Part shown: piece by piece, positions 15,397-58,508 of the stretch | How positions within the stretch are numbered: position 1 is the stretch's first letter | Layout: every line of letters starts with the position of its first letter | From: Alphaproteobacteria bacterium | Lineage (GTDB): Bacteria; Pseudomonadota; Alphaproteobacteria; Rhizobiales; JAJFHR01 | Assembly: GCA_024278055.1 (NCBI GenBank) | Contig: JAJRTY010000024.1 | Span: forward strand, 17,744-81,743 | Direction: 5' to 3' | Length of the DNA: 64,000 nucleotides | Position numbers and translations under genes: made by a program | The notes under the pieces: model-generated | What the model was told of the DNA's origin: nothing | Databases searched by the model: none | Seen by the model: the letters and a program-made list of their open reading frames with translations, nothing else

Positions 15397-16539
15397 ATGC
15401 AAAATCAACAACAAGGTGCAATCACCCCCAAACCCTGGCTGGATCCGAATCAGCAGCCTTTCATTCGGATTTCCAATCTGACTAAAAAATTTGGTGATTT
15501 CACTGCCGTCGACAATGTTTCGCTCGATATTTATCGTCAGGAATTATTCTGCCTGCTTGGCGGATCCGGCTGTGGCAAATCAACCCTGCTGCGCATGCTG
15601 GCTGGATTTGAAACGCCCACCGGCGGACGGATTGAAATTGACGGCCAGGATGTCGCCGATGTGCCTCCCTATGACCGCCCGACCAACATGATGTTTCAAT
15701 CCTACGCCCTGTTTCCGCATATGACGGTGGAAAAAAATGTAGCCTATGGATTGATGCGCGATGGCGTGGCGAAATCAGAAGCTAATGATCGCGTCAATGA
15801 AATGCTCAAACTGGTGCAACTGGATGGTTTTGCCACCCGCAAACCCGACCAGCTTTCCGGCGGCCAACGCCAGCGTGTCGCACTTGCACGCTCATTAATC
15901 AAACAACCAAAACTGCTGCTGCTGGATGAGCCTTTGGGTGCGCTGGACAAAAAGCTGCGCGAGGAAACACAATTTGAGCTGGTCAATATTCAGTAAAGCC
16001 TGGGGGTCACCTTCATAGTCGTTACCCACGACCAGGAAGAAGCCATGACCCTGTCAACGCGCATCGGCGTTATGGATGCAGGGGAAATCGTTCAGGTCGG
16101 CGAACCCCATGACATATACGAGTTTCCGCAGTCGCGCTTTGTCGCCGATTTTATCGGCTCGGTAAATATGTTTGAAGGCCGCGTGGTCGATGATGCCGAG
16201 AATTATGTGCGCATTCACTGCCAACAGGCTGATTGCGATATTCACGTTGCCCATGGTGTCAGTTGCACCGAAAACCAGAGATTATGGTTTGCCATTCGCC
16301 CGGAAAAAATGACCCTGTCGCGTGAAAAACCAGAAGGCATTTACAATTTTGTCGAAGGCAGGGTCGACGAAATTGCCTACATGGGCAACCTCTCGGTATT
16401 TCGTATCAAACTTGACAGCGGCATTATAGTCCGTGTGACAAAATCAAATCTATCACGCCGCGATGAAGACAATATCAGCTGGGACGAAACTGTCTTTGTC
16501 TCCTGGGAAGATACCGCCGGCGTGGTGTTGATGCAATGA
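15397..16539 (+). CDS. Polyamine ABC transporter ATP-binding protein (PotA/PotG-like), interrupted by in-frame TAA at 15994-15996
   Basis: GGSGCGKST Walker [13 protein letters not shown] signature; [24 protein letters not shown] continues in frame. Confidence 0.9.
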
Positions 16540-17471
16540 ACGCAACAACCCTCATAACCGGCGCAGCACGCCTTTTGGGCCGAATGGGTTTTCGCGCCCG
16601 CTCTTTGGTTATAGCCGTGCCGTTCTGGTGGTTGTTCGTGTTTTTTCTCATCCCCTTTGCGGTTGTCGCCAAAATCTCGTTTTCCGAAGCAATCATCGCC
16701 CGACCGCCTTATTCGCCGTTATACACCTGGACCGAGGACGGCGTGCTGCAACTCAAACTGTTTTTTTCAAACTATGGATATCTGCTTGAAGACACGCTTT
16801 ATGTTTCCGCCTACTGGTCATCGATCAAAGTTGCGTTTTTCTCAACCGTCATTGCTTTGCTTGTCGCCTACCCCATGGCATACTACATCGCCCGCACCTC
16901 CGAGCGTCGGCGCAATGTGTTGTTGATGCTGATAATCCTGCCGTTCTGGACATCGTTCCTGTTGCGGGTCTATGCCTGGATCGGCATTTTAAAAACCAAC
17001 GGCATTATCAATAATATTCTGATGTCACTCGGCATCACGTCTGAGCCGATTATTATGATGCAGACAAATTTCGCCGTCTATGTCGGCATTGTCTACACCT
17101 ACCTGCCGTTTATGATATTGCCGCTTTTTACCAATCTGGTGAAGCTCGACCCCTCGCTACTCGAAGCCTCCGCCGATCTTGGTGCGCGCCCGATAACGAC
17201 TTTTTTCAAGATCACCCTGCCATTGTCAGTTCCAGGCATTATCGCCGGCTCAATGCTGGTGTTTATCCCGGTGATCGGTGAATTCGTCATCCCGGCACTT
17301 TTGGGCGGCCCCGACACGTTGATGATCGGCAAAGTCCTGTGGAATGAGTTTTTCTCCAACCGCGACTGGCCGGTAGCCTCAGCCGTTGCCGTCGTCATGC
17401 TGGTGTTGCTGGTAATTCCGATCATGTTGTTGCGCAATGCCCAGAACGCCAGCGCGGGAGCAGCATCATGA
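16536..17471 (+). CDS. Polyamine ABC transporter permease (PotH-like)
   Basis: Polytopic; [29 protein letters not shown] permease loop. Confidence 0.9.
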
Positions 17472-18268
17472 AAAAAACCTCATGGTTCTTAACCATTACC
17501 ACTGTGCTCGGCTTTGCCTTTCTTTACATTCCGATTATCTCACTGATAATTTTCAGCTTCAATGAATCCAAGCTGGTAACCGTCTGGTCGGGGTTTTCAA
17601 CCAAATGGTATGGTGAGCTTTTGCGCGACCCGCAGATACTGGGAGCTGCCTGGATCAGTCTCAAGATAGCCTTCATCAGCGCCACATTGGCAATGGGGCT
17701 GGGGACTTTGGCGGCATTTGTTCTGGTTCGCTTTCGTAAATTTTACGGTAAAAACCTGTTGAGCGGCATGATAACAGCACCTCTGGTGATGCCTGATGTT
17801 ATCATCGGCCTGTCGTTACTGCTGTTGTTCATTGCCATGGAAGCAACATTTGGCTGGCCCGCCGGACGCGGCCTTACCACCATCATTATCGCCCACACAA
17901 CCTTCGCCATGGCCTATGTGGCCATTGTGGTGCAGTCACGCCTGGTTGTTATGGATACAAGTCTGGAAGAAGCAGCCCTTGATCTCGGCGCCAGACCGGT
18001 ACGGGTATTTTTTGATATCACCCTGCCGGTGATCTCGCCTGCTCTGGTTTCCGGCTGGCTGTTGGCCTTTACGCTGTCTCTGGATGATCTGGTCATTGCC
18101 AGCTTTGTTTCCGGTCCCGGTGCCTCCACCCTGCCGATGGTGATTTTCTCAAAAGTACGTCTTGGCGTCAGCCCCGACATCAATGCCCTGGCTACCATCA
18201 TCATTGTGATTGTTGCCATTGGTGTGGTAATCGCCTCCACACAGATGAAACCCGGAAAGACTTCGTAA
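17468..18268 (+). CDS. Polyamine ABC transporter permease (PotI-like)
   Basis: EEAALDLGARPVRVFFDITLPVISPALVSG loop; 4-bp overlap with previous gene. Confidence 0.9.
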   Translation: MKKTSWFLTITTVLGFAFLYIPIISLIIFSFNESKLVTVWSGFSTKWYGELLRDPQILGAAWISLKIAFISATLAMGLGTLAAFVLVRFRKFYGKNLLSGMITAPLVMPDVIIGLSLLLLFIAMEATFGWPAGRGLTTIIIAHTTFAMAYVAIVVQSRLVVMDTSLEEAALDLGARPVRVFFDITLPVISPALVSGWLLAFTLSLDDLVIASFVSGPGASTLPMVIFSKVRLGVSPDINALATIIIVIVAIGVVIASTQMKPGKTS

Positions 18269-19240
18269 ATGAGTAAAACAGATTGCGACCAGGCTTTCAG
18301 AGCCGATGATCTCAACCAGCGCTGGCCGGAAATGACCTATGGTGGTGCCTTGAGTTTTATGCGGCGAAAATACAGCCGCGAGCTTGACGGCGTTGATGTA
18401 GTTGTCAGCGGCATCCCGTATGATTGCGCCGTAACCTTTCGCCCCGGTTGCAGGCTCGGCCCTCGCGCCATTCGCGCAGGCTACGTCCAACTGGCAGAAC
18501 TGAAATCCTTTCCCTTCGGCATTGATCCCTTTGAGACACTTAAAGTCACTGATTACGGCGATTGCTTTCTCGACCCCCATCACCCTGAAACCATCCCCGC
18601 TGCCATCGAAGCCCATGCCGATCACATTCTGGCCAGCGGTGCCAAAATGCTGAGCTTTGGCGGCGATCATTTTGTAGCCTATCCACTGTTGAAGGCACAC
18701 GCAAAAAAATATGGACCTGTCGCCCTGATACAGTTTGATGCCCATTGTGACACCTGGGATGATGACGGCACGGCACTTGATCATGGCTCGATGTTTGCGC
18801 GCGCGCTCAATGATGGTATTGTTGATGTGGCCAGATCAACCCAGATAGGTCTGCGCACCTTTAACGACAGTGACATGGGTTTTGAAATCCTCACCGCCCC
18901 GTGGGTGCATCGCAACGGTATGGATGCAGCCCTCGATATTATCACGCAGCGCGCAGGCGATGCCCCTGTTTACATCTCATTTGATATTGATGGCCTTGAT
19001 CCAGCCTTTGCTCCGGGCACCGGCACACCGGTAGCAGGAGGCCTGGCAAGCTGGCAGGCGCTGGAATTTATTCGCGGCCTTGGCAGCCTCAACCTCATTG
19101 GCATGGATGTTGTGGAAGTTGCACCGGCCTATGACCATGCCGAAATAACCGCTATTGCCGCAGCCACTATCGCCCACGACTGGTTGTGCCTGATGGCCAT
19201 TAAAAAGGGTGCAAAAACCAACGTGGTGGGGCGCTTGTGA
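18269..19240 (+). CDS. Agmatinase/ureohydrolase family
   Basis: FGGDHFVAYP, QFDAHCDTWDD, SFDIDGLDPAFAPGTGTP. Confidence 0.92.
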   Translation: MSKTDCDQAFRADDLNQRWPEMTYGGALSFMRRKYSRELDGVDVVVSGIPYDCAVTFRPGCRLGPRAIRAGYVQLAELKSFPFGIDPFETLKVTDYGDCFLDPHHPETIPAAIEAHADHILASGAKMLSFGGDHFVAYPLLKAHAKKYGPVALIQFDAHCDTWDDDGTALDHGSMFARALNDGIVDVARSTQIGLRTFNDSDMGFEILTAPWVHRNGMDAALDIITQRAGDAPVYISFDIDGLDPAFAPGTGTPVAGGLASWQALEFIRGLGSLNLIGMDVVEVAPAYDHAEITAIAAATIAHDWLCLMAIKKGAKTNVVGRL

Positions 19241-19920
19241 AGATTGGCATTTTACAGGCCGGCCTGTGCCCGGAGGAACTGGTTGAAGAGTACGGTGAAT
19301 ATGATGCTGTGTTTGCACGTTTCCTCGACGGCTTCGGCTTTGAGTTTGAAGGCTTTCGTGTTGTCGAGGGCATATTTCCCTCATCCGTCACTTCGGCTGA
19401 TGGCTGGCTCATTACCGGATCAAAATATGGCGCTTACGAAGACCATGACTGGATAGCACCGCTGGAAGACTTTATTCGCCACGCCTACGGTCAAAATGTT
19501 CCAATTATCGGCGTCTGTTTTGGCCATCAGATTCTGGCCCAGGCCCTTGGCGGCAAAGTAGAGAAATTTACCGGCGGCTGGGCCGTTGGTAAACAGCACT
19601 ATCAACTTGACGGGGTTGAAGCTGGCATCGACCTGATGGCCTGGCATCAGGATCAGGTGATTGTACTGCCGCAAGATGCCGAAGTTATCGGCTCTTCGCC
19701 TTTCTGCAAATATGCAGCCCTGGCCTATGGCAACAAGGCATTGTCGGTTCAGGCTCACCCTGAGTTTGATGCAGAATTTATCGCCGGTCTTTTCAATGCG
19801 CGCAAATACGTTTTACCGGCAGAAGTCATGGCGCACAGTAACGATGATCTTTCGGGAGAATTATCATCGCCTCTTATTGCCAAAATGATGGCGGAGTTTT
19901 TCAAGCAGGAGGCAGTATGA
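19237..19920 (+). CDS. Class I glutamine amidotransferase-like protein
   Basis: PIIGVCFGHQILAQALGGKV nucleophile elbow; QAHPEF. Confidence 0.88.
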   Translation: MKIGILQAGLCPEELVEEYGEYDAVFARFLDGFGFEFEGFRVVEGIFPSSVTSADGWLITGSKYGAYEDHDWIAPLEDFIRHAYGQNVPIIGVCFGHQILAQALGGKVEKFTGGWAVGKQHYQLDGVEAGIDLMAWHQDQVIVLPQDAEVIGSSPFCKYAALAYGNKALSVQAHPEFDAEFIAGLFNARKYVLPAEVMAHSNDDLSGELSSPLIAKMMAEFFKQEAV

Positions 19921-21284
19921 CCAACCTGCCCAAATGGCTGGAACCTGTACCTGCTCCCTTGCACCATTGGCTCAATGGGCGAAAAGTTGATCAGGTGGCT
20001 TGTGTTATCGCCGACGTTGCCGGTGGCACACGCGGCAAAACTGTAGCGGCTGAAAAGTTTTCTCCTTCCGAAAAAATGTTCATGGCGGACTCGATTTTTT
20101 ATCAAACCATCACCGGCAGCTACGCCGAGATGGAAGCTGAAGGTCAATGGACAGAGGCGGACATGGTTTTGACCCCGGATCTTGCAACAACGGTAGCATG
20201 CCCGTGGACAAAGGACGTGACCTTGCAGGTTATTCATGATGTCTCCACCCGGGACGGTGAGCCTGTGGGACTGGCCCCGCGCAATGTTCTCAAACGAGTC
20301 TTATCGTATTATGACCGCGAGGGCTGGCAACCGGTTGTTGCCCCGGAGCTTGAATTTTACCTGACAGAACCCCACACCGATCCCAATTTTCCGGTTCAAC
20401 CTAAATCCGGCCGTACCAATCGTAAAAACGTCAGGCGACAGGTCTACTCCTTAAGCGTCCTTGATGAATACGGCCCGGTGATTGAAGACATTCAGAATTT
20501 CGCCAAAGCTCAGGGCTTTGATATTGATGCCATCGTTCAGGAAGACGGCTCCGGGCAGATTGAGATTAATCTCAATCACGGGGATGCCGTAGCCCTTGCC
20601 GATCGGGTGTTTTGTTTCAAGCGCACCATTCATGAGGCAGCCCTGAAGCATGATTGCTTTGCCACCTTTATGGCCAAGCCGATGCAGGGTGAACCGGGCA
20701 GTGCCATGCACATTCACCAAAGCATTGTCGATAAAAAAACCGGTAAAAACATTTTCAGTCGCGAAGATGGCCAGCCTTCAGAAAAGTTTTACAGTTTCAT
20801 TGCCGGACAGCAACAGCATCTGCCCTCGATTTTTTGTCTCATCGCGCCATATGTCAATTCCTACCGACGTTTTATTGCCGCTCATTCGGCACCGGTAAAT
20901 CTTGAGTGGGGTGAAGACAACCGCACCACCGGCTTGCGCATCCCACTGTCACCGCCTCAGGCACGCCGAGTTGAAAACCGTATCATCGGCATGGATTGCA
21001 ATCCTTACCTGGCGCTGGCAGCCTGTCTGGCCAGCGGTTTCATCGGCATGAAAACGGGATTGAGCCCGCGAGATGCCATGATCGGTGAAGCCTATAAATC
21101 CAACCTCACAATGCCGCGCAGCTTGAGCCTGGCGCTGGAAATGTTTACCGGAAAAACCGAACTTACCGACATGCTCGGCAATGATTTTTGCCAGCTTTTT
21201 CGGGCCATCAAAAAATCTGAAATGGATGATTATTCAGCCATTATCACACCGTGGGAACGCGACCACCTGCTGTTGAACGTATAG
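19917..21284 (+). CDS. Glutamine synthetase family, gamma-glutamylpolyamine synthetase-like (second copy)
   Basis: GSGQIEINLNHGDAV, PGSAMHIHQSI, GLRIPLSPPQARRVENRIIGMDCNPYLALA. Confidence 0.9.
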   Translation: MTNLPKWLEPVPAPLHHWLNGRKVDQVACVIADVAGGTRGKTVAAEKFSPSEKMFMADSIFYQTITGSYAEMEAEGQWTEADMVLTPDLATTVACPWTKDVTLQVIHDVSTRDGEPVGLAPRNVLKRVLSYYDREGWQPVVAPELEFYLTEPHTDPNFPVQPKSGRTNRKNVRRQVYSLSVLDEYGPVIEDIQNFAKAQGFDIDAIVQEDGSGQIEINLNHGDAVALADRVFCFKRTIHEAALKHDCFATFMAKPMQGEPGSAMHIHQSIVDKKTGKNIFSREDGQPSEKFYSFIAGQQQHLPSIFCLIAPYVNSYRRFIAAHSAPVNLEWGEDNRTTGLRIPLSPPQARRVENRIIGMDCNPYLALAACLASGFIGMKTGLSPRDAMIGEAYKSNLTMPRSLSLALEMFTGKTELTDMLGNDFCQLFRAIKKSEMDDYSAIITPWERDHLLLNV

Positions 21285-21293
21285 GACATTGCC

Positions 21294-22694
21294 ATGGCAA
21301 CACTAGACAACCACCTGCCGACGAGTGAACTACAAGCTCTTGATGCAGCTCACCACATCCACCCCTTTAGCGACCGTGCCGCCATGAACGCCAAAGGCGC
21401 ACGCGTAATCACCCGCGCCAGTGGTGTTTACCTGTGGGACAGTGACGGTGAAAGGTTGCTTGATGGCATGGCCGGATTATGGTGCGTTAACCTCGGCTAT
21501 GGTCGCCACGAACTTGTTGATGCAGCTGCTCGTCAAATGTCCCAATTGCCCTATTACAACACGTTTTTCCAGACCACTCACCCGCCCGCCGTCATGCTGG
21601 CAAAACGCCTGGCTGAACTTGCGCCAGGAACTCTCAACCACGTGTTTTTTGCCGGCTCAGGCTCAGAGGCCAACGATACCAACGTGCGCATGGTACGTCA
21701 TTACTGGGCAAGTCTGGGCAAACCCGACAAAAAGACCATCATCGCCCGCAAAAACGGCTATCACGGCTCAACCGTGGCCGCAGCATCGCTTGGCGGCATG
21801 AGTGCCATGCACGAGCAAGGCGGCCTGCCCATCCCCAACATCACCCATATTGACCAGCCTTACTGGTATGGCGAAGGTGGGGACAGTTCTCCAGCTGAAT
21901 TTGGATTGGCGCGCGCCCGCGCACTCGAGACAGAAATTGAGCGCATCGGTGCCAACAAGATCGCAGCCTTTATAGCCGAACCCGTACAAGGTGCCGGTGG
22001 CGTAATTATCCCACCCGACACCTACTGGCCGGAAATACAGCGCATTTGCAGCGAGCATGACATTCTGCTGATTGTTGATGAAGTCATTACCGGTTTTGGC
22101 CGTACCGCCAACTGGTTTGCCGGTGAAACCTTTGCCATAGCCCCGGACATTATGACCATAGCCAAGGGATTGACGTCAGGATATCTACCGATTGGTGCCT
22201 CAATTGTCAGCGACAGAGTTGCCAATGTTCTCAGTGAAAAGGGTGGAGATTTTCAGCATGGCTACACATTTTCCGGCCATCCCGCAGCTTGCGCCGTTGC
22301 CCTGGAAAATCTTCGCATTATGGAAGATGAGCACTTGATCGAAATTGTCGCCGAACAAACAGCGCCTTACCTTGAAGAAAAATGGAAATCTCTCGGCAAT
22401 CACCCTCTGGTCGGTGAAGCGCGTGTTTGCGGTATGATGGCAGCCATCGAATTAACCCCTGATAAAGCCGCGCGCGCACGTTTCAGCGAAAACAGCAACG
22501 TTGGCATTACCTGCCGCAACCTTTGTTTTGACAATGGCCTGATCATGCGCTCAGTGGGTGATATTATGGTAATCTCTCCACCATTAAACATCTCCCCATC
22601 GCAGATTGATGAGTTGGTTGGACTTGCTTTCAAATCTCTCGATATGACTCTGGATGTGCTGACCAAAGACGGTTTGATGAAAACGGCAGCGTAA
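21294..22694 (+). CDS. Class III aminotransferase (polyamine:pyruvate type, SpuC-like)
   Basis: FFAGSGSEANDTNVRMVRHYW, IVDEVITGFGRTANWFA, TIAKGLTSGYLPIGA. Confidence 0.92.
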   Translation: MATLDNHLPTSELQALDAAHHIHPFSDRAAMNAKGARVITRASGVYLWDSDGERLLDGMAGLWCVNLGYGRHELVDAAARQMSQLPYYNTFFQTTHPPAVMLAKRLAELAPGTLNHVFFAGSGSEANDTNVRMVRHYWASLGKPDKKTIIARKNGYHGSTVAAASLGGMSAMHEQGGLPIPNITHIDQPYWYGEGGDSSPAEFGLARARALETEIERIGANKIAAFIAEPVQGAGGVIIPPDTYWPEIQRICSEHDILLIVDEVITGFGRTANWFAGETFAIAPDIMTIAKGLTSGYLPIGASIVSDRVANVLSEKGGDFQHGYTFSGHPAACAVALENLRIMEDEHLIEIVAEQTAPYLEEKWKSLGNHPLVGEARVCGMMAAIELTPDKAARARFSENSNVGITCRNLCFDNGLIMRSVGDIMVISPPLNISPSQIDELVGLAFKSLDMTLDVLTKDGLMKTAA

Positions 22695-22697
22695 TCT

Positions 22698-23999
22698 ATG
22701 AACGTATTATTCGCCAATGATCCACAGGGGAGCTATCCGCCCTCCTATTACCATGCCACCAGCACCGAATTGCCTGCCTTCCCCGCCCTTGCCGGTGATC
22801 TCAACTGTGACGTCTGCATCATAGGCGCAGGCTATACCGGCCTGTCCGCAGCGTTGCATCTGGCGCAGAAAAACTATGATGTGGTGGTGCTTGATGCCCA
22901 TCGCATTGGCTGGGGAGCATCGGGGCGCAATGGCGGCCAATTGGGCATTGGCCTGCGCGTCGAGCAATCAAAGATTGAAAAAATGGTCGGCATCGAGGCC
23001 GCCAAGGGGCTGTGGCAGCTTGGTCTTGAAGCCAATCAACTGGTGCATGATCTCGTCAAACAGCACAAAATCGATTGTGATTTGAAACCCGGGGTTCTGC
23101 ACGCCAATCATCGCGCCCGGTTCACCCGCCACTCACAACAGGAAGTAGAACATCTGCACTCGCAATACGGTCATGATAAAGTCCGCTTTGTCGATGAGAC
23201 TGAAATTCGCCAGATGCTTGGTACAAAAGCCTATTTCAGTGGCACTCTTGACACCAGTGCCGGTCATCTGCATCCGCTCAATTTTGCCTTCGGCCTGGCC
23301 CGGGTAGCTGTTAATGCCGGTGTTCGTTTTTTTGAAAAAACCGAAGTCACCGATATTTCCAAATCAGATCCGGCCATCGTTACAGGCGCATGCGGAAAAG
23401 TATCGGCCAAATTCGTCATCATCGCCTGCAATGGCTATCTCGGAAAACTGGAAAAAAAGATTGCCGCACGCGTCATGCCGGTCAACAATTTCATCATCGC
23501 CACCGAGCCGTTGCCGCAGGAAAAAGCCGACGAACTTATCCGCGATGATATCGCCGTTGCCGATTCAAAGTTCGTCATTAATTATTACCGTCTATCGGCT
23601 GACAAACGCCTGCTGTTTGGCGGTGGTGAAAATTACGGTTACAAGTTTCCTGCCGATATAAAATCCTTTGTCACCCGGCCCATGTTAGAAATTTATCCGC
23701 AACTGAAAGATGTGAACATCGACTACGGCTGGGGCGGCACTCTCGCCATTACCATGAACCGTCTGCCCTACCTCAACCGCCTTGCCCCCAATATCCTCAC
23801 CGCCGGTGGCTACAGTGGCTATGGCCTGGGCATGGGTACATTTTCCGGCCTCGTTTTAGCGCAAGCCATTGATGGTACCGCCAGCCGGTTTGACTGCATG
23901 GGGTCAATTCCAACAAAGAGGTTTCCCGGCGGCTCCCTAGCCAGAACACCATTGCTGGTTCTTGCCATGTTGTATTACACACTGCGTGACAGGTTTTAG
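22698..23999 (+). CDS. FAD-dependent gamma-glutamylputrescine oxidoreductase-like (PuuB-like)
   Basis: CDVCIIGAGYTGLSAALHLAQKNYDVVVLDAHRIGWGASGRNGGQ. Confidence 0.9.
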   Translation: MNVLFANDPQGSYPPSYYHATSTELPAFPALAGDLNCDVCIIGAGYTGLSAALHLAQKNYDVVVLDAHRIGWGASGRNGGQLGIGLRVEQSKIEKMVGIEAAKGLWQLGLEANQLVHDLVKQHKIDCDLKPGVLHANHRARFTRHSQQEVEHLHSQYGHDKVRFVDETEIRQMLGTKAYFSGTLDTSAGHLHPLNFAFGLARVAVNAGVRFFEKTEVTDISKSDPAIVTGACGKVSAKFVIIACNGYLGKLEKKIAARVMPVNNFIIATEPLPQEKADELIRDDIAVADSKFVINYYRLSADKRLLFGGGENYGYKFPADIKSFVTRPMLEIYPQLKDVNIDYGWGGTLAITMNRLPYLNRLAPNILTAGGYSGYGLGMGTFSGLVLAQAIDGTASRFDCMGSIPTKRFPGGSLARTPLLVLAMLYYTLRDRF

Positions 24000-24091
24000 C
24001 CCTCTTGAGTTTCAAGTGCGATTTCCCGACCATGGCATGAGACTTGCTGTTTATCTGGCTTAAGCCGGTTAAATCGCAAAAAAGGCCCAAA

Positions 24092-33619: not shown

Positions 33620-34293
33620 CACATGCCTCCAGGATTTTGTGCGCCGGGCAATGCATCCGTACCGCAGATTCCACAATCAGGTGCGCCGTTAAACGCTTCT
33701 GGCTCGACCCAGTCCTGGTCAAGTTCTTCCAGTGTTTTAATGTCCGGCAAAGCAGCATCCGCTGCTTTTTGAATAGCAGCCTTGTCTATTTTCACACCCG
33801 ATAAAGCGACCACAGTTGCCATGACGGTATGATATCCGCTGCCCCGGCGTTTCAGTTTCTCACCAATGGTGGCTATAACCGGGACGGCCTGAGACAGGAG
33901 TTCCTGGGCTTCATCAACCTCGCAAATGGAGATAAATTCCAGAAACAGCGGCAGGTAGTCAGGCAATTCGCTTGCATCAACCTTCAGGCTCTTTTCACGA
34001 TAGCGCTCCGACAGATCAATCATTGCTTTGCCGCGAAACCGCGATTCGCCATGCACATGTTCAAACAGATGCAGACAATGGGCGCGACCGCGATCAAACA
34101 GATCCACATAGACCTCCTGTGCATCCATCAATTCGGTTGCCTGCAATTCATCCATGAACGCAAACAGGCCTTTCAATTTTCGGGGCTTTAACAAACCCTC
34201 CTCGGCAATAATACCTTTCATCTCATCCATATGATCAAGCAACTCGGCCTGCGGATAGGTCAACAATCGCGATAAAACTCTAAAACTTCTCAT
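33619..34293 (-). CDS. narJ: Nitrate reductase chaperone NarJ (delta)
   Basis: LSRLLTYPQAELLDHMDEM, YVDLFDRGRAHCLHLFEHVHGESRFRG. Confidence 0.93.
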   Translation of the reverse strand: MRSFRVLSRLLTYPQAELLDHMDEMKGIIAEEGLLKPRKLKGLFAFMDELQATELMDAQEVYVDLFDRGRAHCLHLFEHVHGESRFRGKAMIDLSERYREKSLKVDASELPDYLPLFLEFISICEVDEAQELLSQAVPVIATIGEKLKRRGSGYHTVMATVVALSGVKIDKAAIQKAADAALPDIKTLEELDQDWVEPEAFNGAPDCGICGTDALPGAQNPGGM

Positions 34294-35845
34294 GGGTATC
34301 CCTCGGCTTTCCGCTCATGGTATTTTTGTGGGTTGGTGTGCCAAACAGATTGGTGCTGTCAGGATCACCGCCATGACAACCATTGCCAAAGCTGAACCCG
34401 CACTCAGAGCGCGTTGCAAAAGCAATATCCTGATCAAACGGCGTTTCACCTGAATATTCCCGGTGATTGGTGGGAATAACAAACCGATCTTAATAATTGG
34501 CAATCGCCAGCAACTTGTACATGTCGGTTAATTCTTCTTCGGTCATGTTGATGGACTTGAGAATTTCAGGATCATCATAACCCTCAACCGACCTTGCCCG
34601 CATAAACGCCCGCATGCCCATCATCCGTTCCAGCGCTGAGACAACCGGTGCCTCATCACCGGCGGTGAGCAGATTGGCGAGATATTTCACCGGAATGCGC
34701 AAATCCTTGACGTTGGGCAATACACCGGGCTCCCCCAGCAGACCTGATTCCACCGCCGATTGAATGGGCGACAGTGGCGGCACGTACCAGACCATCGGCA
34801 AGGTGCGATATTCAGGATGCAGAGGAAAAGCGATTTTCCACTCAATCGCCATTTTGTAGATGGGCGAATTCTGCGCACCTTCAATCCAGCTGTCCGGCAC
34901 ACCATCTGCACGCGCCCGGGCGATGACTTGCGGGTCATTGGGATCAAGGAACAGGTCACATTGCGCCTGATAGAGATCCTTTTCATCTTCCTTCGAAGCC
35001 GCCTGTTTGATCTGGTCTGAATCGTAGAGCAGAACACCAAGATAGCGGATCCGCCCAACACAGGTTTCCGAACACACTGTAGGCTCACCGGCTTCCAGGC
35101 GGGGATAACACAGGGTGCATTTTTCCGATTTACCCGACTGCCAGTTGAAATAAATTTTCTTGTAGGGACAGCCTGAAACACACATGCGCCAGCCGCGGCA
35201 TTTGTCCTGATCAATCAGCACAACGCCATCTTCCTCGCGTTTGTATATGGCACCCGACGGGCATGACGCAACACACGAGGGATTGAGACAATGCTCGCAC
35301 AGGCGCGGCAGATACATCATGAAGGTGTTTTCAAATTCACCGTAGATAGATTTTTCAACATCTTCAAAATTGTAATCCTGTGAGCGCTTTTTAAACTCAC
35401 CGCCAAGGATTTCTTCCCAGTTGGGCGCCCAATTGGGTTTTTCCATCTTCTCCCCGGTCAGAGCTGAACGCATGCGCGCTGTGGGAACAGTTTCGCTTTC
35501 CTTGGCACTTTGCAGATGATCATATTCATAAGTGAACGGTTCATAATAATCATCAATTTCCGGCAAATCAGGATTGGCGAAAATCTTTGACAGAATATTG
35601 AGTTTGCCCCCGGCTTTGGGTTGCAGCTTGCCGGATTTGGTCAGCTCCCATCCGCCTTTCCATTCTTCCTGATCTTCCCAGTTGCGCGGATACCCAACTC
35701 CGGGTTTCGTCTCCACATTGTTAAACCAGGCATATTCAACCCCGCCCCGCGATGTCCAGACATTCTTGCAGGTCACCGAGCAGGTATGACAGCCGATGCA
35801 TTTGTCCAGATTAAGGACCATTGCTATTTGCGCGCGAATAGTCAT
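34280..35845 (-). CDS. narH: Respiratory nitrate reductase beta subunit, interrupted by in-frame TAA at 34490-34492
   Basis: Fe-S Cys clusters CIGCHTCSVTCKN etc.; LLAIANY-TAA-DRFVIPTNHREYSGETPFDQDIAFATRSECGFSFGNGCHGGD continues in frame to TAG at 34280. Confidence 0.93.
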
Positions 35846-47368: not shown

Positions 47369-47402
47369 AACTGTTTTCAGGTGAATATACCTGAAAACAG
47401 TT
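47369..47402 (-). terminator. Perfect 14-bp stem hairpin between rraA-like and ATP-grasp genes
   Basis: AACTGTTTTCAGGT-GAATAT-ACCTGAAAACAGTT; minus-strand reading ends in TTTTATC. Confidence 0.7.
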
Positions 47403-47422
47403 AATATGATTGCCTACAGGTC

Positions 47423-48495: not shown

Positions 48496-50232
48496 ATGAA
48501 GAAAGTAATGATATCTGCACTTACTCTAGTAGCAGCGCTGGCTGTTTCCGCACCTGCATGGGCGGGAATAGAAGAGGCCAAAAAATGGGTGGAAACAGAG
48601 TTCCAGCCCTCGACCCTGTCAAAAAGCGAACAGATGAAAGAAATGGAGTGGTTTATCAAGGCCGCTGAGCCCTTTAAAGGCATGGAAATCAACGTTCTGT
48701 CTGAGGGAATTCCCACCCATGATTACGAATCAAAAGTTCTCACAAAGGCTTTTGAGGAAATCACCGGAATAAAAGTCAATCACCAGATTCTGCGCGAAGG
48801 TGAAGTCGTCCAGGCGGTACAGACCCAGATGCAGACCCGGCGCAACCTTTATGATGCTTACATCAATGATTCTGATTTGATCGGCACCCATTCGCGTCTC
48901 CAGCTGGCCGTCAATCTTACTGACTGGATGGCGGGTGAAGGCAAGGACGTTACCTCACCAACACTGGATATCGATGATTTCATTGGCAAATCTTTCACCA
49001 CCGGTCCCGATGGCAAGCTGTATCAGCTTCCAGACCAGCAATTCGCCAATCTTTACTGGTTCCGTTATGACTGGTTCAAGCGCGCTGATCTTAAAAAGCG
49101 TTTTAAAGAAAAATATGGCTATGAGCTTGGTGTTCCGGTCAACTGGTCGGCCTATGAAGATATCGCCGAGTTTTTCTCTGAAGATGTCAAGGAAATTGAC
49201 GGCAAGCGCATCTACGGCCACATGGATTATGGCAAACGTGCGCCAGACCTTGGCTGGCGTATGACCGATGCCTGGCTGTCCATGGCCGGTGCCGGCTCAA
49301 AAGGCCTTCCCAATGGTATCCCGGTCGATGAATGGGGCATTCGCATGGAAAAAGGCTCTTGCAATCCGGTTGGTGCTTCTGTGTCACGTGGCGGTGCCAC
49401 TAACGGACCCGCAGCAGTCTATGCCATTCGCAAATGGGATGAGTGGCTAAGGAAGTACGCCCCTCCAGGTGCTGCTGATTTTGACTTCTATCAGTCCTTA
49501 CCAGCTCTGGCCTCAGGCAACGTTGCCCAGCAAATTTTCTGGTATACAGCCTTTACCGCAACAATGGTTGCGCCCAAAAGTGAAGGCAACAACACAGTAG
49601 ATGATGCCGGCAAGCCCTTGTGGCGGATGGCACCTTCACCGCATGGTCCTTATTGGGTTAACGGACAAAAACTTGGCTATCAGGATGCCGGTTCGTGGAC
49701 AATTTTCAAATCCACACCGGTAAAACGTCGCAAGGCAGCCTGGCTTTATGCCCAGTTTGTAACCTCCAAAACCCTTGATGTGAAAAAGAGCCATGTAGGT
49801 CTTACTTTCATCCGCGAATCCACGATCATGGATGAAAGCTTCACCAAACGCGCACCCAAGCTCGGTGGCTTGATTGAGTTTTACCGCTCACCAGACCGGG
49901 TCAACTGGACTCCGACCGGCGTCAACGTACCTGACTATCCTAAACTGGCGCAGCTTTGGTGGCAGAATATTGGTGATGTCAACTCGGGCACATTTACGCC
50001 ACAACAGGCGATGGACCGTCTTGCCGGAGAAATGGACAGCGTTATGGCCCGTATGCAGGCCGCTGACGAAAAAGCCAAAATCTATGGCGGTTGCGGCCCA
50101 CGGCTGAACCCGAAGGTAGACCCTGCGGTCTGGCTTAACAAGCCTGGTTCACCAAAGGCCAAACTGGCCAACGAAAAGCCAAAAGGTGAAACCATCGCTT
50201 ATGATGAACTCATCAAGCGCTGGGCTAAATAA
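48496..50232 (+). CDS. Glycerol-type ABC transporter substrate-binding protein (GlpV-like)
   Basis: Signal peptide; INVLSEGIPTHDYESKVLTKAFEEITGIKVNHQI; first gene of GlpVSTPQU-like operon. Confidence 0.85.
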   Translation: MKKVMISALTLVAALAVSAPAWAGIEEAKKWVETEFQPSTLSKSEQMKEMEWFIKAAEPFKGMEINVLSEGIPTHDYESKVLTKAFEEITGIKVNHQILREGEVVQAVQTQMQTRRNLYDAYINDSDLIGTHSRLQLAVNLTDWMAGEGKDVTSPTLDIDDFIGKSFTTGPDGKLYQLPDQQFANLYWFRYDWFKRADLKKRFKEKYGYELGVPVNWSAYEDIAEFFSEDVKEIDGKRIYGHMDYGKRAPDLGWRMTDAWLSMAGAGSKGLPNGIPVDEWGIRMEKGSCNPVGASVSRGGATNGPAAVYAIRKWDEWLRKYAPPGAADFDFYQSLPALASGNVAQQIFWYTAFTATMVAPKSEGNNTVDDAGKPLWRMAPSPHGPYWVNGQKLGYQDAGSWTIFKSTPVKRRKAAWLYAQFVTSKTLDVKKSHVGLTFIRESTIMDESFTKRAPKLGGLIEFYRSPDRVNWTPTGVNVPDYPKLAQLWWQNIGDVNSGTFTPQQAMDRLAGEMDSVMARMQAADEKAKIYGGCGPRLNPKVDPAVWLNKPGSPKAKLANEKPKGETIAYDELIKRWAK

Positions 50233-50321
50233 TAGTCCTGGAAGTGAATAACCGGAGGAGGATCCTGCAACCTCCTCCGGTGTTCTATAGCTGTAACTCT
50301 TTGCCTTGGTGTTAAGTGCCC

Positions 50322-51389
50322 ATGACGCTGGTTTTCAAAGACGTGTCGTTGAATGTGGGGGCGCAAACTCATATTTATCCCACCAACCTCGAGTTCGGGC
50401 AGACCGGCTTCAATATCCTGCTTGGCACCACGCTCGCCGGCAAAACCACATTGATGCAGATAATGGCTGGCCTGATCAAACCGACCGCAGGTGAGATCTG
50501 GTTTGACGGCAGAAATGTTACCGGCACCTCGGTACAAAAACGAAATGTGTCACTGGTTCACCAGCAGTTCATCAATTACCCCAACATGAATGTTTTTGAA
50601 AACATTGCCTCTCCTTTACGCGTTATCGGTATGGGTAAAGCTGAAATTACCCGGCAGGTGGAAACCATCGCCGAGATGCTGAAAATGACCCCCATGCTCG
50701 GGCGTAAACCGGCTGAACTTTCCGGCGGCCAGCAACAACGCACCGCCCTGGCCCGCGCGCTGGTCAAGCAGGCTGATCTGGTTTTGCTCGATGAGCCCCT
50801 GGCCAACCTTGATTTTAAACTGCGCGAAGAACTGCGTGAAGAACTGCCCAAAATGTTTGAAAATCGCGGCTGCTGCGTTGTCTATGCCACAACAGAGCCA
50901 ATGGAAGCCCTGTTGCTGGGAGGACATACCGCCTGTTTGCATGAAGGTGCCATTACCCAGTTTGGCAAAACAGACGAGATTTATCGTGTACCCGCAAATC
51001 TGAAATCCGCGCAGGTGTTCTCCGACCCACCCATAAATATTGCCGCTGTCACCAAGCAGGGCAATCGCATTATTCTTAACAGCAATGTCAGCTGGGTCCT
51101 GGATAAAAACCTGCACCAGATGGCCGATGGACCCTATACTCTTGGCATCAGGCCGCATCACATCCTGCCATTTGAGACAGAGGGCAACTCAGTCAAAATC
51201 AGTGGCAAAGTCCTGGTAACGGAACTCAGCGGCTCGGAAAGCACAATTCATTTCAACCTCGATGACCTGTCATGGGTGTCACAGGCCTCAGGCATCCATG
51301 CCTTTGATCGCGAGACCATCAACTCATTTTACCTTCAGACCGACAGATGCCTGTATTTCGACAATAATGAGCAACTGGTGCAGACATGA
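50322..51389 (+). CDS. ABC transporter ATP-binding protein (GlpS-like)
   Basis: LLGTTLAGKTTLMQIMAGL Walker A, LSGGQQQRTALA. Confidence 0.85.
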   Translation: MTLVFKDVSLNVGAQTHIYPTNLEFGQTGFNILLGTTLAGKTTLMQIMAGLIKPTAGEIWFDGRNVTGTSVQKRNVSLVHQQFINYPNMNVFENIASPLRVIGMGKAEITRQVETIAEMLKMTPMLGRKPAELSGGQQQRTALARALVKQADLVLLDEPLANLDFKLREELREELPKMFENRGCCVVYATTEPMEALLLGGHTACLHEGAITQFGKTDEIYRVPANLKSAQVFSDPPINIAAVTKQGNRIILNSNVSWVLDKNLHQMADGPYTLGIRPHHILPFETEGNSVKISGKVLVTELSGSESTIHFNLDDLSWVSQASGIHAFDRETINSFYLQTDRCLYFDNNEQLVQT

Positions 51390-51402
51390 GGTATTATTGA
51401 CG

Positions 51403-52470
51403 ATGGCCCATATTACCTTGCAGGATCTGAAACACTCCTATAACGAGCGCCCTGAAGATGACGACGACTGGGCCTTGAAACACCTGAACTTTGAATGTGA
51501 AGATGGCGGCGCCTATGCCCTGCTTGGGCCTTCGGGCTGTGGCAAAACCACTCTTCTCAACATCATTTCCGGCCTGTTGATACCGACTGAAGGCAGTGTG
51601 CTTTTTGATCAAAAAGATGTAACCGGCCTCATGCCGGATCAACGCAACATTGCCCAGGTGTTTCAGTTCCCCGTGGTCTATGACACCATGAGTGTCTATG
51701 ATAATCTGGCATTTCCGCTGCGCAACCGCGGACTTGAAGGTGAGGCGGTTGATCAGCGCGTACGCCAGATAGCCGCAATGATCGATCTCACCGACACCCT
51801 GCACCAGCGTGCCGCCGGTTTGAGCGCCGATGGCAAACAGAAAATCTCTTTAGGCCGGGGGCTGGTGCGTGCCGATGTCAATGTCATTATGTTCGATGAA
51901 CCTTTAACCGTGATCGACCCCCATCTCAAATGGCAGTTGCGCTCCAAGCTCAAAGAGCTGCACCAACAGGTCGGCACCACCATGATCTACGTCACCCATG
52001 ATCAGACCGAAGCGCTGACGTTTGCCGATAAAGTTGTCGTTATGTATGATGGTGCCGTGGTGCAGATCGGCACCCCGGTTGAATTATTTGAAAAGCCGCA
52101 ACACACTTTCGTCGGGCATTTTATCGGCTCACCCGGCATGAACATATTGCGCTGCGACCTTGATAACGGCAAGCCGGTTTTGGCCGGTGAGGTCATTCCC
52201 GCCAGCCCGGTCAAGCATGCCCCGCAAGCCGGTGCAAACCTCGAAATCGGCATTCGCCCCGAGTTCATACAATTCGCCAACACCGGTCTGGCGGTAAAAA
52301 TTATTCGCACCAGCGATGCCGGACGCTTCAGCATTGTAGAGGCTCTGCATAAAGACCAGTCAATAAAACTGCTGGTGCCTGAAGGGGAGGAAATTCCCTC
52401 AGAAAATGCCTTTATCGAATTTGATAAGGCTCACACGCAAATCTATGCCGATGGCCGGATAATTACCTGA
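51403..52470 (+). CDS. ABC transporter ATP-binding protein (GlpT-like)
   Basis: LLGPSGCGKTTLLNIISGL, LSADGKQKISLGRGLVRADVNVIMFDEPLTVIDPHLKW. Confidence 0.85.
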   Translation: MAHITLQDLKHSYNERPEDDDDWALKHLNFECEDGGAYALLGPSGCGKTTLLNIISGLLIPTEGSVLFDQKDVTGLMPDQRNIAQVFQFPVVYDTMSVYDNLAFPLRNRGLEGEAVDQRVRQIAAMIDLTDTLHQRAAGLSADGKQKISLGRGLVRADVNVIMFDEPLTVIDPHLKWQLRSKLKELHQQVGTTMIYVTHDQTEALTFADKVVVMYDGAVVQIGTPVELFEKPQHTFVGHFIGSPGMNILRCDLDNGKPVLAGEVIPASPVKHAPQAGANLEIGIRPEFIQFANTGLAVKIIRTSDAGRFSIVEALHKDQSIKLLVPEGEEIPSENAFIEFDKAHTQIYADGRIIT

Positions 52471-52476
52471 GGAAGG

Positions 52477-53346
52477 ATGATGGCAGCAAAAACCACAAAT
52501 CAAAAAGCATGGTTCTTCGTCATTCCGGTTGTGCTGCTGGTGGCCTTCAATGCGGTAATCCCGTTGATGACAGTTGTCAATTATTCGGTTCAGGAGACTT
52601 TTGGCGACAATGTCTTTTTCTGGGAAGGCATCAGATGGTTTGAACAGGTTCTTAATTCGGAACGTTTTCAGTCATCCCTTGGCCGCCAAGTCATCTTTAC
52701 CAGCATCATACTGGCAATTGAAATACCACTTGGTATTGCCATAGCGCTCACCATGCCGCGCAAGGGCCCCTGGGTTTCTGTGTGCCTGGTTTTGATGGCG
52801 CTGCCATTGCTGATACCGTGGAATGTGGTCGGCTCCATGTGGAATATTTTTGCCCTGCCTGAAATCGGTCTTATGGGCAAGGGATTGAATGCGCTCGGGT
52901 TTGATTTCAACTTCACCCGCCAGCCGCTTGATGCCTGGTTCACCGTGATTTTGATGGACGTATGGCACTGGACATCTTTGGTGGTGCTGCTGGCATATGC
53001 GGGCTTGTGTTCAATTCCCGATGCCTACTATCAGGCTGCAAGAATTGATGGTGCCAGCCGCTGGGCGATTTTCAGATTTATTCAACTGCCGAAAATGAAA
53101 CGGGTTTTGACCATTGCCATCCTGCTGCGCTTCATGGACAGTTTCATGATCTATACCGAACCCTTTGTACTCACCGGCGGTGGTCCCGGCAATTCAACCA
53201 CCTTCCTGTCAATTGATCTGGTCAAGACCGCCCTGGGGCAGTTTGATCTGGGGCCGGCAGCCGCCATGTCGCTGATTTACTTCCTGATAGTGCTGCTGGT
53301 GAGCTGGATTTTTTACACCCTCATGATGAAAGACGAGGTGGAATGA
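52477..53346 (+). CDS. ABC transporter permease (GlpP-like)
   Basis: Polytopic; YYQAARIDGASRWAIFRFIQLPKMKRV. Confidence 0.88.
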   Translation: MMAAKTTNQKAWFFVIPVVLLVAFNAVIPLMTVVNYSVQETFGDNVFFWEGIRWFEQVLNSERFQSSLGRQVIFTSIILAIEIPLGIAIALTMPRKGPWVSVCLVLMALPLLIPWNVVGSMWNIFALPEIGLMGKGLNALGFDFNFTRQPLDAWFTVILMDVWHWTSLVVLLAYAGLCSIPDAYYQAARIDGASRWAIFRFIQLPKMKRVLTIAILLRFMDSFMIYTEPFVLTGGGPGNSTTFLSIDLVKTALGQFDLGPAAAMSLIYFLIVLLVSWIFYTLMMKDEVE

Positions 53347-54146
53347 TGCGGCGGTTTACCTGGCTTGTACCGACACTCTACATCATATTCCTGATGCTGC
53401 CGATTTACTGGCTGTTGAATATGTCATTCAAGACCACCAATGAAATCCTGGGAACATTTTCACTATGGCCGCGCGAATTCACACTGGAGAACTACCGCAC
53501 CATCTTTACCGATTCAACCTGGTACAATGGCTATTTCAACTCACTCACCTATGTAATTCTCAACACGGTAATTTCGGTTTCCATTGCCCTGCCCGCAGCT
53601 TACGCTTTTTCCCGCTACCGGTTTTTGGGCGACAAACACCTGTTTTTCTGGCTGCTGACAAATCGCATGGCCCCGCCTGCGGTTTTTGCCCTGCCATTTT
53701 TCCAGCTTTATTCTGCCGTCGGCCTGTTTGACACTCCCCTTGCAGTGGCCCTCGCCCATGCCTTGTTCAATATTCCGCTGGCAGTGTGGATTTTGGAGGG
53801 CTTCATGTCGAGCATCCCGCGCGAACTTGACGATACCGCCTATGTGGATGGATATTCCTTCCCGCGCTTTTTTCTCAGGATTTTCATGCCGGCGATTGCA
53901 GCAGGCATCGGTGTTGCCGCCTTCTTCACATTCATGTTTTCCTGGGTGGAATTGCTGCTGGCCAAAACACTTACCTCCGTTGCCGCCAAACCCATCGCCG
54001 CCACAATGACCAAAACGGCCAGCACCTCAGGCTATGAATTGGGATTACTGGCAGCCGCCGGCGTTCTCACCATTATCCCCGGCGCCTTTGTGATTTATTT
54101 TGTGCGCAACTACATCGCCAAGGGCTTTGCCATGGGGCGGGTGTAG
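53343..54146 (+). CDS. ABC transporter permease (GlpQ-like)
   Basis: Polytopic; ELDDTAYVDGYSFPRFFLRIFMPAIAAG. Confidence 0.88.
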   Translation: MMRRFTWLVPTLYIIFLMLPIYWLLNMSFKTTNEILGTFSLWPREFTLENYRTIFTDSTWYNGYFNSLTYVILNTVISVSIALPAAYAFSRYRFLGDKHLFFWLLTNRMAPPAVFALPFFQLYSAVGLFDTPLAVALAHALFNIPLAVWILEGFMSSIPRELDDTAYVDGYSFPRFFLRIFMPAIAAGIGVAAFFTFMFSWVELLLAKTLTSVAAKPIAATMTKTASTSGYELGLLAAAGVLTIIPGAFVIYFVRNYIAKGFAMGRV

Positions 54147-54219
54147 AGCGTGTCAGCGATGAGTGGGGAGCGGTTATCGGATAAATGAGACGCTTAAACA
54201 AATACTAAGGAGTAAGAAA

Positions 54220-54501
54220 ATGGGCCTATCTTGGATGGCATGGACGTGGCAGACAGCACTTTTTTTCATTGGTATTTTCTGCTCCCTGCTGGCTATGGGG
54301 GTGTGGGAATACTACCATCCCGGCGGTGCGCCGCGCCGGGGTATTTTGACACTTGACACCACTCGTGGAGACCGCCTGTTTATCACCCTGCTTGGCAGCG
54401 CCTTCATCTTCCTCGGCTGGCTCGGCTTCTTTGGCCCCCCCCTGTGGGGAGCCGCTATTGTCTCACTGCTCTATGGATATAGTGTTTTTCGCTGGGTATA
54501 A
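54220..54501 (+). CDS. DUF2160-like small membrane protein (GlpU-like)
   Basis: MGLSWMAWTWQTALFFIGIF...YYHPGGAPRRGILTLDTTRGDRLFI; end of glycerol transporter operon. Confidence 0.8.
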   Translation: MGLSWMAWTWQTALFFIGIFCSLLAMGVWEYYHPGGAPRRGILTLDTTRGDRLFITLLGSAFIFLGWLGFFGPPLWGAAIVSLLYGYSVFRWV

Positions 54502-55284
54502 TTATTTTCCCTTCCACACAGGATCACGTTTTTCTGCAAATGCCTGAAAGCCTTCAAGGCCATCTTCACTGCCATAGAGAATATCGACGGTGGAGAACTG
54601 GCGTTTTGTAATCTTGTTGAGTGCGTCCTGAAACTTCATCGCTTCAGCTTCACGCGCCACTTGCTTGATGGCAGCAAACACCAGTGGTGGGCCCTGTTCC
54701 AGTTGCCGGGCTGTTTCCCATACCCGGTCGTATAATTTTTCCTGCGGCAAAACCTCGTTCACAAGCCCCCAGCGCAAAGCTTCTTCCGCATCCATCCAGC
54801 GCCCGGTAAACAACATCTCCATCGCCACATGATAAGGAATGCGCCGGGGCAGCTTCAGGGTTGCAGCATCTGCAAGTGTGCCAGCGCGGATTTCCGGCAG
54901 GGCAAAGGTTGAATGTTCAGCCGAATAGATCAGATCACAGGACAGCGCCAGCTCAAACCCGCCCCCCACCGCCATGCCACTCACCGCTGCCAGCACCGGC
55001 TTGTTGAGATCGCGTAATTCCTGCAAACCGGCCAACCCGCCAACCCCGTAATCACCGTCAACCGCATCACCACCTGCAGCAGCCTTCAAATCCCATCCGG
55101 CAGAAAAAAATCTGTCCCCGGCGGTTCTGACAATGGCCACCCGCATATCAACATCATCGCGAAACTCCTTGAATGTCTCCCCCATGATGCGGCTGGTTTC
55201 AAGGTCAATGGCATTGGCCTTGGGCCGGTCCAGCGTCACCTCGAAAACACCGCCGTCTTTGCGTATTGAAATTACCTTACTCAT
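54502..55284 (-). CDS. Enoyl-CoA hydratase family, crotonobetainyl-CoA hydratase (CaiD)-like
   Basis: VTLDRPKANAIDLETSRIMGETF, VSGMAVGGGFELALSCDLI. Confidence 0.85.
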   Translation of the reverse strand: MSKVISIRKDGGVFEVTLDRPKANAIDLETSRIMGETFKEFRDDVDMRVAIVRTAGDRFFSAGWDLKAAAGGDAVDGDYGVGGLAGLQELRDLNKPVLAAVSGMAVGGGFELALSCDLIYSAEHSTFALPEIRAGTLADAATLKLPRRIPYHVAMEMLFTGRWMDAEEALRWGLVNEVLPQEKLYDRVWETARQLEQGPPLVFAAIKQVAREAEAMKFQDALNKITKRQFSTVDILYGSEDGLEGFQAFAEKRDPVWKGK

Positions 55285-57346
55285 AATTTTCTCTCCCAAA
55301 TACCAGCAACGCATCAGCGGCCATAGCGCCATGCCCTTCAGCACACACAATCAGCGGATTGATTTCCAGTTCATCCAGGTTTTCACCATGTGCGACCGCA
55401 AACTTCTGTATAGCCTCAATTTCCACAACAGCCGCTGCCAGATCTGCCTTTTCGCGCCCGCGAAAACCGTCAAAGAAAACAGCCCCTTTTAATTTCCTCA
55501 AAGCCTGTTCAATCTCTTGCGCATTTGCCGGCAATAACAATGTCTGACCGTCTGCCCAGATTTCCACCAGCGTACCGCCCGTGGCAATCGTCATTACCAG
55601 CCCGAACTGCTCATCACGCACAATGCCGACCAGCACCTCAAACACACTATGGCCAATCATGGCCTCAATATACACCTCTTTACCCGATTTCATCAGGCTT
55701 GCAGCACCCGCCACCGCCCCGGCTTCATCGCATATATTCAAGCGCACCCCATTGTGCTCGGTTTTATGGCCAATGCCGGACATCTTGATGGCAACGGGAA
55801 AACCAATGGTCTTTGCAATCTCGCCAGCCCTGTCAGGATCGCTGCACTTTTGTCCGCACGGAACTGAAATATTATGACGCGCGAGTAACGCCTTTGCTTC
55901 GGCTTCGTCTGGGAAGGTGGTTATATTCGTGCTTGCCAGTGTCGCTGTTAAAACAGGTAGCGACTGTGGTCGGGCCCAGGCCTGCCCGATGGCAGCAGCA
56001 GCCTCAATGGCATCGAGTGCTTCATCAATTCCGCACAGGGGCGCGATTTTGCGACCCATTAAGCCAATCGCCTGTTGTTCGGATATATTCTCCGGCAAAG
56101 AGGCAATGACAGCACACCGCGCACCGGTCTCGTCTGCCGCATCTGCAAGCGCATCAATGGCAATCCACCAGTTGTCAGCCTTGCACCTGTCGTTGCGTGG
56201 AAATTCCAGAATCAGACAGTTGAGATCAAACCCGGCACTTAACATCCTCGTAAATACCGCCGTCATCGCTTCTGCATCCGCCCAGATATAGGTGTGGTAA
56301 TCAAGCGGATTTTCCACCGTCACCATCTCGCCCAAGACCTCGCGCAGTGGCTGTTTTTGCGCTTCAGTCAAAGACGGAAACAACACTTTACGCCCAAGGC
56401 AGGCATCGGCCATCAAACTGGCTTCACCACCTGAACAACTCATCGAGGAGATTTCAGCACCATTAAGGGGGCCTGCCACATGCAGCAGTTTTAATGTCTC
56501 CAGAAATGACGGGATTGACTTAATCCGGGCAATTCCAATTCGCGTCAAAAACGCATCGGCAGCCTTGTCTGATCCCGCCATTGAAGCCGTATGGGTATAT
56601 GTGGCCTGCCGCGCTTTTTCACTGCGGCCAACTTTCAGGGCGACAATCGGTTTGTTTAAAACCCTCGCCTTGACAGCAACGGCTTCAAACCCGGCAATAT
56701 TGTCAAAGCCTTCGATATGCAGTCCCAGCGCTGTTACGCTGGGGTCATCCAGCAAGGCACTGGCGATCTTAGACAGGCCAGTCTGGGCCTGATTGCCTGC
56801 GGTTAAAACGTAAGCCACCGGCAAACCTCTTTTCTGCATGGTCAGGTTGATGGCGATATTTGACGATTGCGTAATAATGGCGACGCCGGTTTCACCACTG
56901 GCCAGTTTTCTGCCGCCATGCTGATCCGGCCACAGCGCAACACCACCGGCATAATTCAAAAAGCCATAGCAATTGGGCCCGATAACCGGCATATCACCGG
57001 CAGCATCAACCAGCGCCTGTTGAAGCCCGGCACCTTCTCCATCGGTTTCCAAAAATCCTGAAGCATAACAAATAGCCCCGCCTGCATTGCGCTCACTGAG
57101 AGCTTCAACAATTTCGATGGTACGCGCGCGGTTAACACCAATGAATGCTGCATCAGGTGACCCTGGCAGGCTTTCGATTGTCGGGTAGGCTTTATAGCCA
57201 CAGACCTGCTTTTTTGTCGGATGCACCGGCCAGATTTCCCCTGGAAATCCCAATGCCATACATTGTTCAATAACAGCCCTGGCCTCCTTGCCGCCAATTA
57301 CGGCAATCGTTCCGGGTTCCAGCAGGCGTTTGAGGCAGCGCGCCAT
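55277..57346 (-). CDS. Acyl-CoA synthetase, ADP-forming type (CoA-binding + ATP-grasp)
   Basis: 689 aa; IAVIGGKEARAVIEQC N-terminal CoA-binding; GFPVAIKMSGIGHKTEHNGVRLNI ATP-grasp. Confidence 0.87.
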   Translation of the reverse strand: MARCLKRLLEPGTIAVIGGKEARAVIEQCMALGFPGEIWPVHPTKKQVCGYKAYPTIESLPGSPDAAFIGVNRARTIEIVEALSERNAGGAICYASGFLETDGEGAGLQQALVDAAGDMPVIGPNCYGFLNYAGGVALWPDQHGGRKLASGETGVAIITQSSNIAINLTMQKRGLPVAYVLTAGNQAQTGLSKIASALLDDPSVTALGLHIEGFDNIAGFEAVAVKARVLNKPIVALKVGRSEKARQATYTHTASMAGSDKAADAFLTRIGIARIKSIPSFLETLKLLHVAGPLNGAEISSMSCSGGEASLMADACLGRKVLFPSLTEAQKQPLREVLGEMVTVENPLDYHTYIWADAEAMTAVFTRMLSAGFDLNCLILEFPRNDRCKADNWWIAIDALADAADETGARCAVIASLPENISEQQAIGLMGRKIAPLCGIDEALDAIEAAAAIGQAWARPQSLPVLTATLASTNITTFPDEAEAKALLARHNISVPCGQKCSDPDRAGEIAKTIGFPVAIKMSGIGHKTEHNGVRLNICDEAGAVAGAASLMKSGKEVYIEAMIGHSVFEVLVGIVRDEQFGLVMTIATGGTLVEIWADGQTLLLPANAQEIEQALRKLKGAVFFDGFRGREKADLAAAVVEIEAIQKFAVAHGENLDELEINPLIVCAEGHGAMAADALLVFGRENYE

Positions 57347-57347
57347 T

Positions 57348-58508
57348 TCAGCAGCCTAGCGGGCGTAATAATTCACGCGAGATAATATGGCGCTGAATTT
57401 CCGAGGTACCGTCCCAAATCCTCTCAACGCGGGCATCGCGCCACAGGCGTTCGAGCGGCAGATCATCCATCAACCCCATACCGCCAAATATCTGGATAGC
57501 TTCATCGGTGACAAAACCCAGCATTTCGGTGGCAAACAGTTTGGCGCTGGCAATCTCTCTGTTGGCCGGCAAAGACTGGTCCAGCCGCCACGCTGCCGAA
57601 AGCGTCATTAAATCAGCTGCATCAATCCGGGTAATCATGTCGGCAAGCTTGAATGACACCCCCTGAAAACGCCCGATTTTCTGGCCGAACTGCTCACGCT
57701 CAGCAGCATATTCTACTGCCAGATCAAAGGCCCGGCGCGCCCGGCCGACACTGGCGGCGGCCACAGAAATTCTGGTGGCATAAAGCCATTCATTGGCAAT
57801 ATCGAAACCCTGGTGAACCTGCCCGAGTATCTGGCTTGCGGGCAAACGGCAATCTTCAAAATTTAGAATACAATTTTGATATCCCCGGTGACTGACAGAA
57901 TTATACCCCGGCGTGATATCAAATCCCGGCATGTCACGATCCACCAGGAAACAGGTGATCTTTTTCTTAACCCCTTGCGCGGTTTGTTCTTCACCGGTGG
58001 CAACAAAAACAATGGCAAAATCGGCAATATCACCATGGCTGATAAAATGTTTGCTGCCATTAACAATCCAGTCATCACCGCTTTGTCTCGCCGCACATTT
58101 CATACCGCGAACGTCAGAACCCGCGCCGGGTTCGGTCATCGCCAGACAGTCAATTTTTTCACCGCGCACCGCCGGTAATAAATAGCATTCACGCTGCTCT
58201 CCCTCGCACGCCAGCAGGATGCCCGAAGGACGGCCAAAAAACACCCCCAGCGCCATACTGGCCCGGCCCAATTCGCGTTCAAGCAAGGTAAAATCGAGAT
58301 GGCTCAACCCGCCGCCGCCAATATCTTAGGGCATGTTTGCGGCATAAAACCCCAACTCAAGGCATTTTTTCTGAATGTCGCGGCCAAGCTCGCGTGGCAC
58401 ATTCCCGCTGCGCTCAATTTCAGCTTCATGGGGATAAAGTTCGTGCTCAACAAAGCGCCGAACCGTATCAACAATCATCTGTTGTTCAGTGGAAAGGGCA
58501 AAATCCAT
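57348..58508 (-). CDS. Acyl-CoA dehydrogenase, interrupted by in-frame TAA at 58326-58328
   Basis: MDFALSTEQQMIVDTVRRFVEHELYPHEAEIERSGNVP...YAANMP-TAA-DIGGGGLSHLDFTLLEREL...AMTEPGAGSDVRGMK in one frame. Confidence 0.9.

Follow-up and report, generated by a model that had tools for sequence, protein, structure and literature searches.

In-frame TAA codons at glutamate positions of a draft alphaproteobacterial genome: probable unselected G:C-to-T:A substitutions that can mimic a new genetic code

Among described systems, the code of Blastocrithidia is the closest in which a stop codon stands for glutamate: UAR specifies Glu and UAA doubles as the stop (PMC12153298), and this eukaryote has Glu tRNAs with UUA and CUA anticodons, release-factor changes and UAA as its sole stop codon (PMC12153298). 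Internal stops may also originate in the sequencing of a genome; an excess of them has been tied to low sequencing coverage or to reads of poor quality, the latter increasing internal stops more than frameshifts (PMC11017572), and an oxidised-guanine sequencing artefact is characterised by G>T changes without matching C>A changes on the opposite strand (PMC12390751).

The DNA analysed here, hereafter the window, is a stretch of 64,000 nucleotides (positions 17744-81743 of contig C177) from G000, an alphaproteobacterial draft genome of environmental origin, 3.57 Mb in 217 contigs, 97.45% complete and 6.47% contaminated; the comparison set consists of two sister genomes of the same genus, G001 and G002. 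Three genes of the window are interrupted by an in-frame TAA:

15397..16539, + strand: potA-like ABC transporter ATPase gene; reading through the TAA gives a 380-residue protein
34250..35845, - strand: narH (nitrate reductase beta subunit); after the TAA the frame runs on to a TGA near 34250
57348..58508, - strand: acyl-CoA dehydrogenase gene; uninterrupted in nine other genomes

An earlier note on the window had claimed these three single TAAs; their coordinates are correct, and each read-through yields one intact family protein. The TAA of the potA-like gene (15994..15996, + strand) falls at residue 200, where G001 has GAA (Glu) in an ortholog of 93% identity that lacks internal stops up to its own end. 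The TAA of narH (34490..34492, - strand) falls at residue 452, between IANY and DRFVIPT; the codon is GAA in G001 and GAG in G002, both orthologs being uninterrupted, and the position is Glu in all 47 of 47 wider homologs (within the named collection, most relatives of narH come from Alphaproteobacteria). In the acyl-CoA dehydrogenase gene the TAA (58326..58328, - strand) falls at residue 61, between ANMP and DIGGGGLS, and the sisters have GCA (Ala; G001) and GAA (Glu; G002). The further claim that each TAA is one G-to-T step from GAA therefore stands for narH and potA, and is likely for the dehydrogenase. Two other differences in the window had been missed: a frameshift near 1748 breaks up a soxC-like gene (927..2143, - strand) that is a single frame in G001, and an agmatinase-like gene (18269..19240, + strand) has at 18482 the codon TAC (Tyr) against TCC (Ser) in G001, a C-to-A change, i.e., of the G:C-to-T:A class, at a position where G001 and the aligned solved agmatinases retain Ser.

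The survey covered 1.21 Mb of G000 (about a third of the genome) and 1.45 Mb of G001, with genes called by a codon-usage gene finder, an earlier six-frame comparison having been swamped by shadow frames; names of genes lacking a family search were assigned by reading the sequence. In G000, 31 interruptions were found (25 TAA, 4 TAG and 2 TGA), so that the earlier statement that TAG and TGA interruptions are absent holds within the window and fails genome-wide. Over ~142,000 codons in each genome, the ortholog comparison gave 17 interruptions in G000 (13 TAA, 3 TAG, 1 TGA; 18 rows before window position 11009, located upstream of a start, was dropped) against 3 in G001, one of which sits in a gene also having frameshift candidates; because of this contrast the pattern of three TAAs in the window exceeds chance. 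A second survey, of stops with coding sequence on both flanks checked for read-through in G001 or G002, added 12 TAA, 1 TAG and 1 TGA, all uninterrupted in G001 or G002. Several apparent cases were set aside, namely an ABC gene whose two TAAs both lie past the gene end, an nth-like gene whose TGA and TAA are terminal, and two further apparent interruptions (u4 and u7) at gene boundaries. In an NtrC-type gene of G001 (L188:338, on C37), a TAA stands in place of the Glu codon of the ELFGH motif.

The interrupted genes of G000 include the housekeeping genes ftsZ, smc, glmS, metF and tolB, the first three being essential, as well as kdsD and a PBP1a-like gene; they are otherwise well conserved, with one lesion each except metF, which has two. 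The TAAs of metF (L066) lie at two Glu positions 22 codons apart (G000:C117:64325 and 64391). TAA stands where G001 has Glu in potA, narH, metF (twice), smc, ftsZ, glpK and one unnamed gene; comparison with solved relatives places it at Glu in glmS and kdsD, at Lys in hutU, at Ser or Gln in sat and at Asp in rnj, and for some TAA sites the residue in G001 is Asn, Ser, Pro or Thr. The TAGs of the ortholog set occur at Ser and Asp and its TGA at Gly, a further TGA being found in tolB. Frameshift candidates amount to 7 rows in G000, two of which describe a single site, and to 3 in G001. In having single internal stops in many conserved genes, absent in close relatives, and far fewer frameshifts than internal stops, G000 resembles the assemblies of low coverage or low quality described previously, with their spurious pseudogenes (PMC11017572); unlike in those, nearly all of its cases fit one base-change class.

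Among the one-step stop-creating differences at well-conserved codons of the ortholog set, 13 are G:C-to-T:A and none is a transition; there are two A:T-to-T:A rows besides, one of them window position 11009. At per-site missense rates, transitions would be expected to form ~58% of both classes together, and the probability of seeing none is 0.42^13, or ~1e-5. At two of the TAG sites G001 has TCG (Ser). The TGA of tolB lies at a position which, from the family, we take to be Trp; that stop would then be a transition, for which reason nearly all, and not all, of the interruptions belong to the one class. The positions interrupted include Glu, Ser, Gly and Asp, and probably Trp. The earlier note would have taken interruptions of all stop types at random residues as its refutation; all three stop types are indeed found, at residues that are not random. 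T directly precedes TAA at more than half of 26 listed sites, a frequency above expectation that counts against the explanation preferred below. In a context table of all G:C-to-T:A differences between G000 and G001 a strong overall excess in G000 was absent.

If such substitutions were unselected, missense changes of the same class should accompany the stops, and here the picture is mixed. Wider homologs of 80 loci polarised too few sites, and the following counts come from the pairwise, unpolarised comparison of G000 with G001. Radical G:C-to-T:A missense changes at G then A number 14 into G000 against 6 into G001, close to the stop rate. With every class counted, radical G:C-to-T:A missense changes are 86 against 86, an excess of 0 where ~53 extra would be expected for 13 stops if changes were random, a shortfall of ~2 to 4 standard errors that disappears only when Ala-to-Asp is set aside. 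Radical classes of low background give 64 (G000) against 40 (G001), Ala-to-Asp having been excluded after the counts were known, and nine hand-picked classes in well-conserved stretches give 31 against 13, a list also chosen after the counts were known. Since the choice of classes followed sight of the counts, the missense test suggests unselected change without being decisive. An overall rise of synonymous G:C-to-T:A changes in G000 was not found.

The recoding reading, that UAA means Glu inside genes, and stop at gene ends, through an unseen suppressor tRNA or misreading, has its attractions. As in Blastocrithidia (PMC12153298), TAA occurs both at Glu positions and as a terminator; TAAs (25) prevail over TAG and TGA together (6), and same-class missense is not clearly in excess. 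TAA occupies at least nine Glu sites supported by orthologs, plus those of glmS and kdsD, no TAG having been found at a Glu site; for the well-identified Glu sites, 11 TAA and 0 TAG, the usage of GAG predicts ~4.6 TAG (probability ~0.02). Several observations weigh against it. Among the 33 of 36 tRNAs read in this incomplete genome, none has a UUA or CUA anticodon, the former being the tRNA suspected in the earlier note; the remaining three measure 84-87 nt, as do Leu or Ser tRNAs. As for the release factors, to which the same note had pointed, at the level of domains RF1, RF2 and ArfB are present without stops. Thus neither the cognate tRNAs (33/36 tRNAs) nor the release-factor changes (domain-level check) of Blastocrithidia were found in G000, nor is UAA the sole stop. 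TAA makes up 39.5% of terminators in G000 and 38.6% in G001, i.e., no shift. In-frame stops involve more than a single codon and more than a single residue, TAGs at Ser sites and the TGA at a Gly site lying in some cases only a few kilobases from TAA sites, and the TAA sites of G000 are not shared by G001 or G002, some aligning with residues other than Glu as noted above. Recoding or suppression is accordingly very improbable, and a new meaning for the stop codon is not supported. If true, UAA as Glu would be a stop-to-Glu change beyond the known bacterial cases, which to our knowledge involve UGA.

Two further explanations take the stops to be real. Ordinary pseudogenes, arising through everyday nonsense mutation (the parallel nonsense mutations of the earlier note), would account for the few frameshifts that are also present; such mutation should produce mostly transition-type stops (from CAA, CAG, CGA and TGG), and it is disfavoured because the ortholog set contains none. 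With several housekeeping genes interrupted, in genes that are well conserved apart from the single lesion (two in metF), this is the least probable of the readings. It is also unlikely, though less so, that the substitutions are recent G:C-to-T:A mutations caused by oxidative stress or weakened 8-oxoguanine repair, the assembly recording a deteriorating or hypermutated lineage. The base-change class matches the loss of MutY or MutM, whose mutator strains share the G:C-to-T:A bias, and MutM of G000 (L147, C42) carries a Ser-to-Arg change by which the stretch GGSSLNDY reads GGSRLNDY, at a position that is Ser in 3 of 3 aligned relatives (codon AGG, against AGC in G001). Nevertheless, mutY and mutM are both above the cut-off and stop-free, MutY looks normal, synonymous G:C-to-T:A changes are not elevated overall, and a growing cell could not lose ftsZ, smc and glmS.

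We consider it probable, therefore, that the TAAs are unselected G:C-to-T:A substitutions, likeliest errors of the consensus or of damaged DNA and less likely the work of a mutator. The systematic G-to-T sequence error that the earlier note had listed among its possibilities is favoured by the stop survey, with all three stop types and mostly one base-change class. As genes needed by a growing cell are interrupted, the cause likeliest lies in the sequence and not in the organism; a consensus error accounts for the essential genes affected, the single base-change class, the mix of stops and the contrast with the sister. Two observations sit uneasily with it: the missense excess that should accompany the stops appears only in part, and TAG in place of GAG at Glu positions is rarer than predicted. 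Miscalled or oxidatively damaged bases would enter a consensus for which reads were few or of poor quality, and G:C-to-T:A substitutions, mostly at G then A, would be scattered through the draft genome. GAA is the codon most commonly made a stop by G-to-T in the G-then-A context, so that most of the visible cases present as TAA in place of Glu. G-to-T changes usually originate from oxidised guanine. The interruptions with their base-change class, their rarity in the sister genome, the unshifted terminator use and the intact release factors are observed; we infer that the substitutions are errors and that their chemistry was oxidation. The G-to-T and C-to-A changes resemble those of the oxidised-guanine artefact (PMC12390751).

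One class of base error can thus mimic a new genetic code, since of the codons that a single G-to-T change turns into a stop, GAA is the most frequent. Before reassignment is claimed from a draft genome, a recoding screen should examine the class of base change, each of the three stops, the use of terminators and the missense changes belonging to that class.
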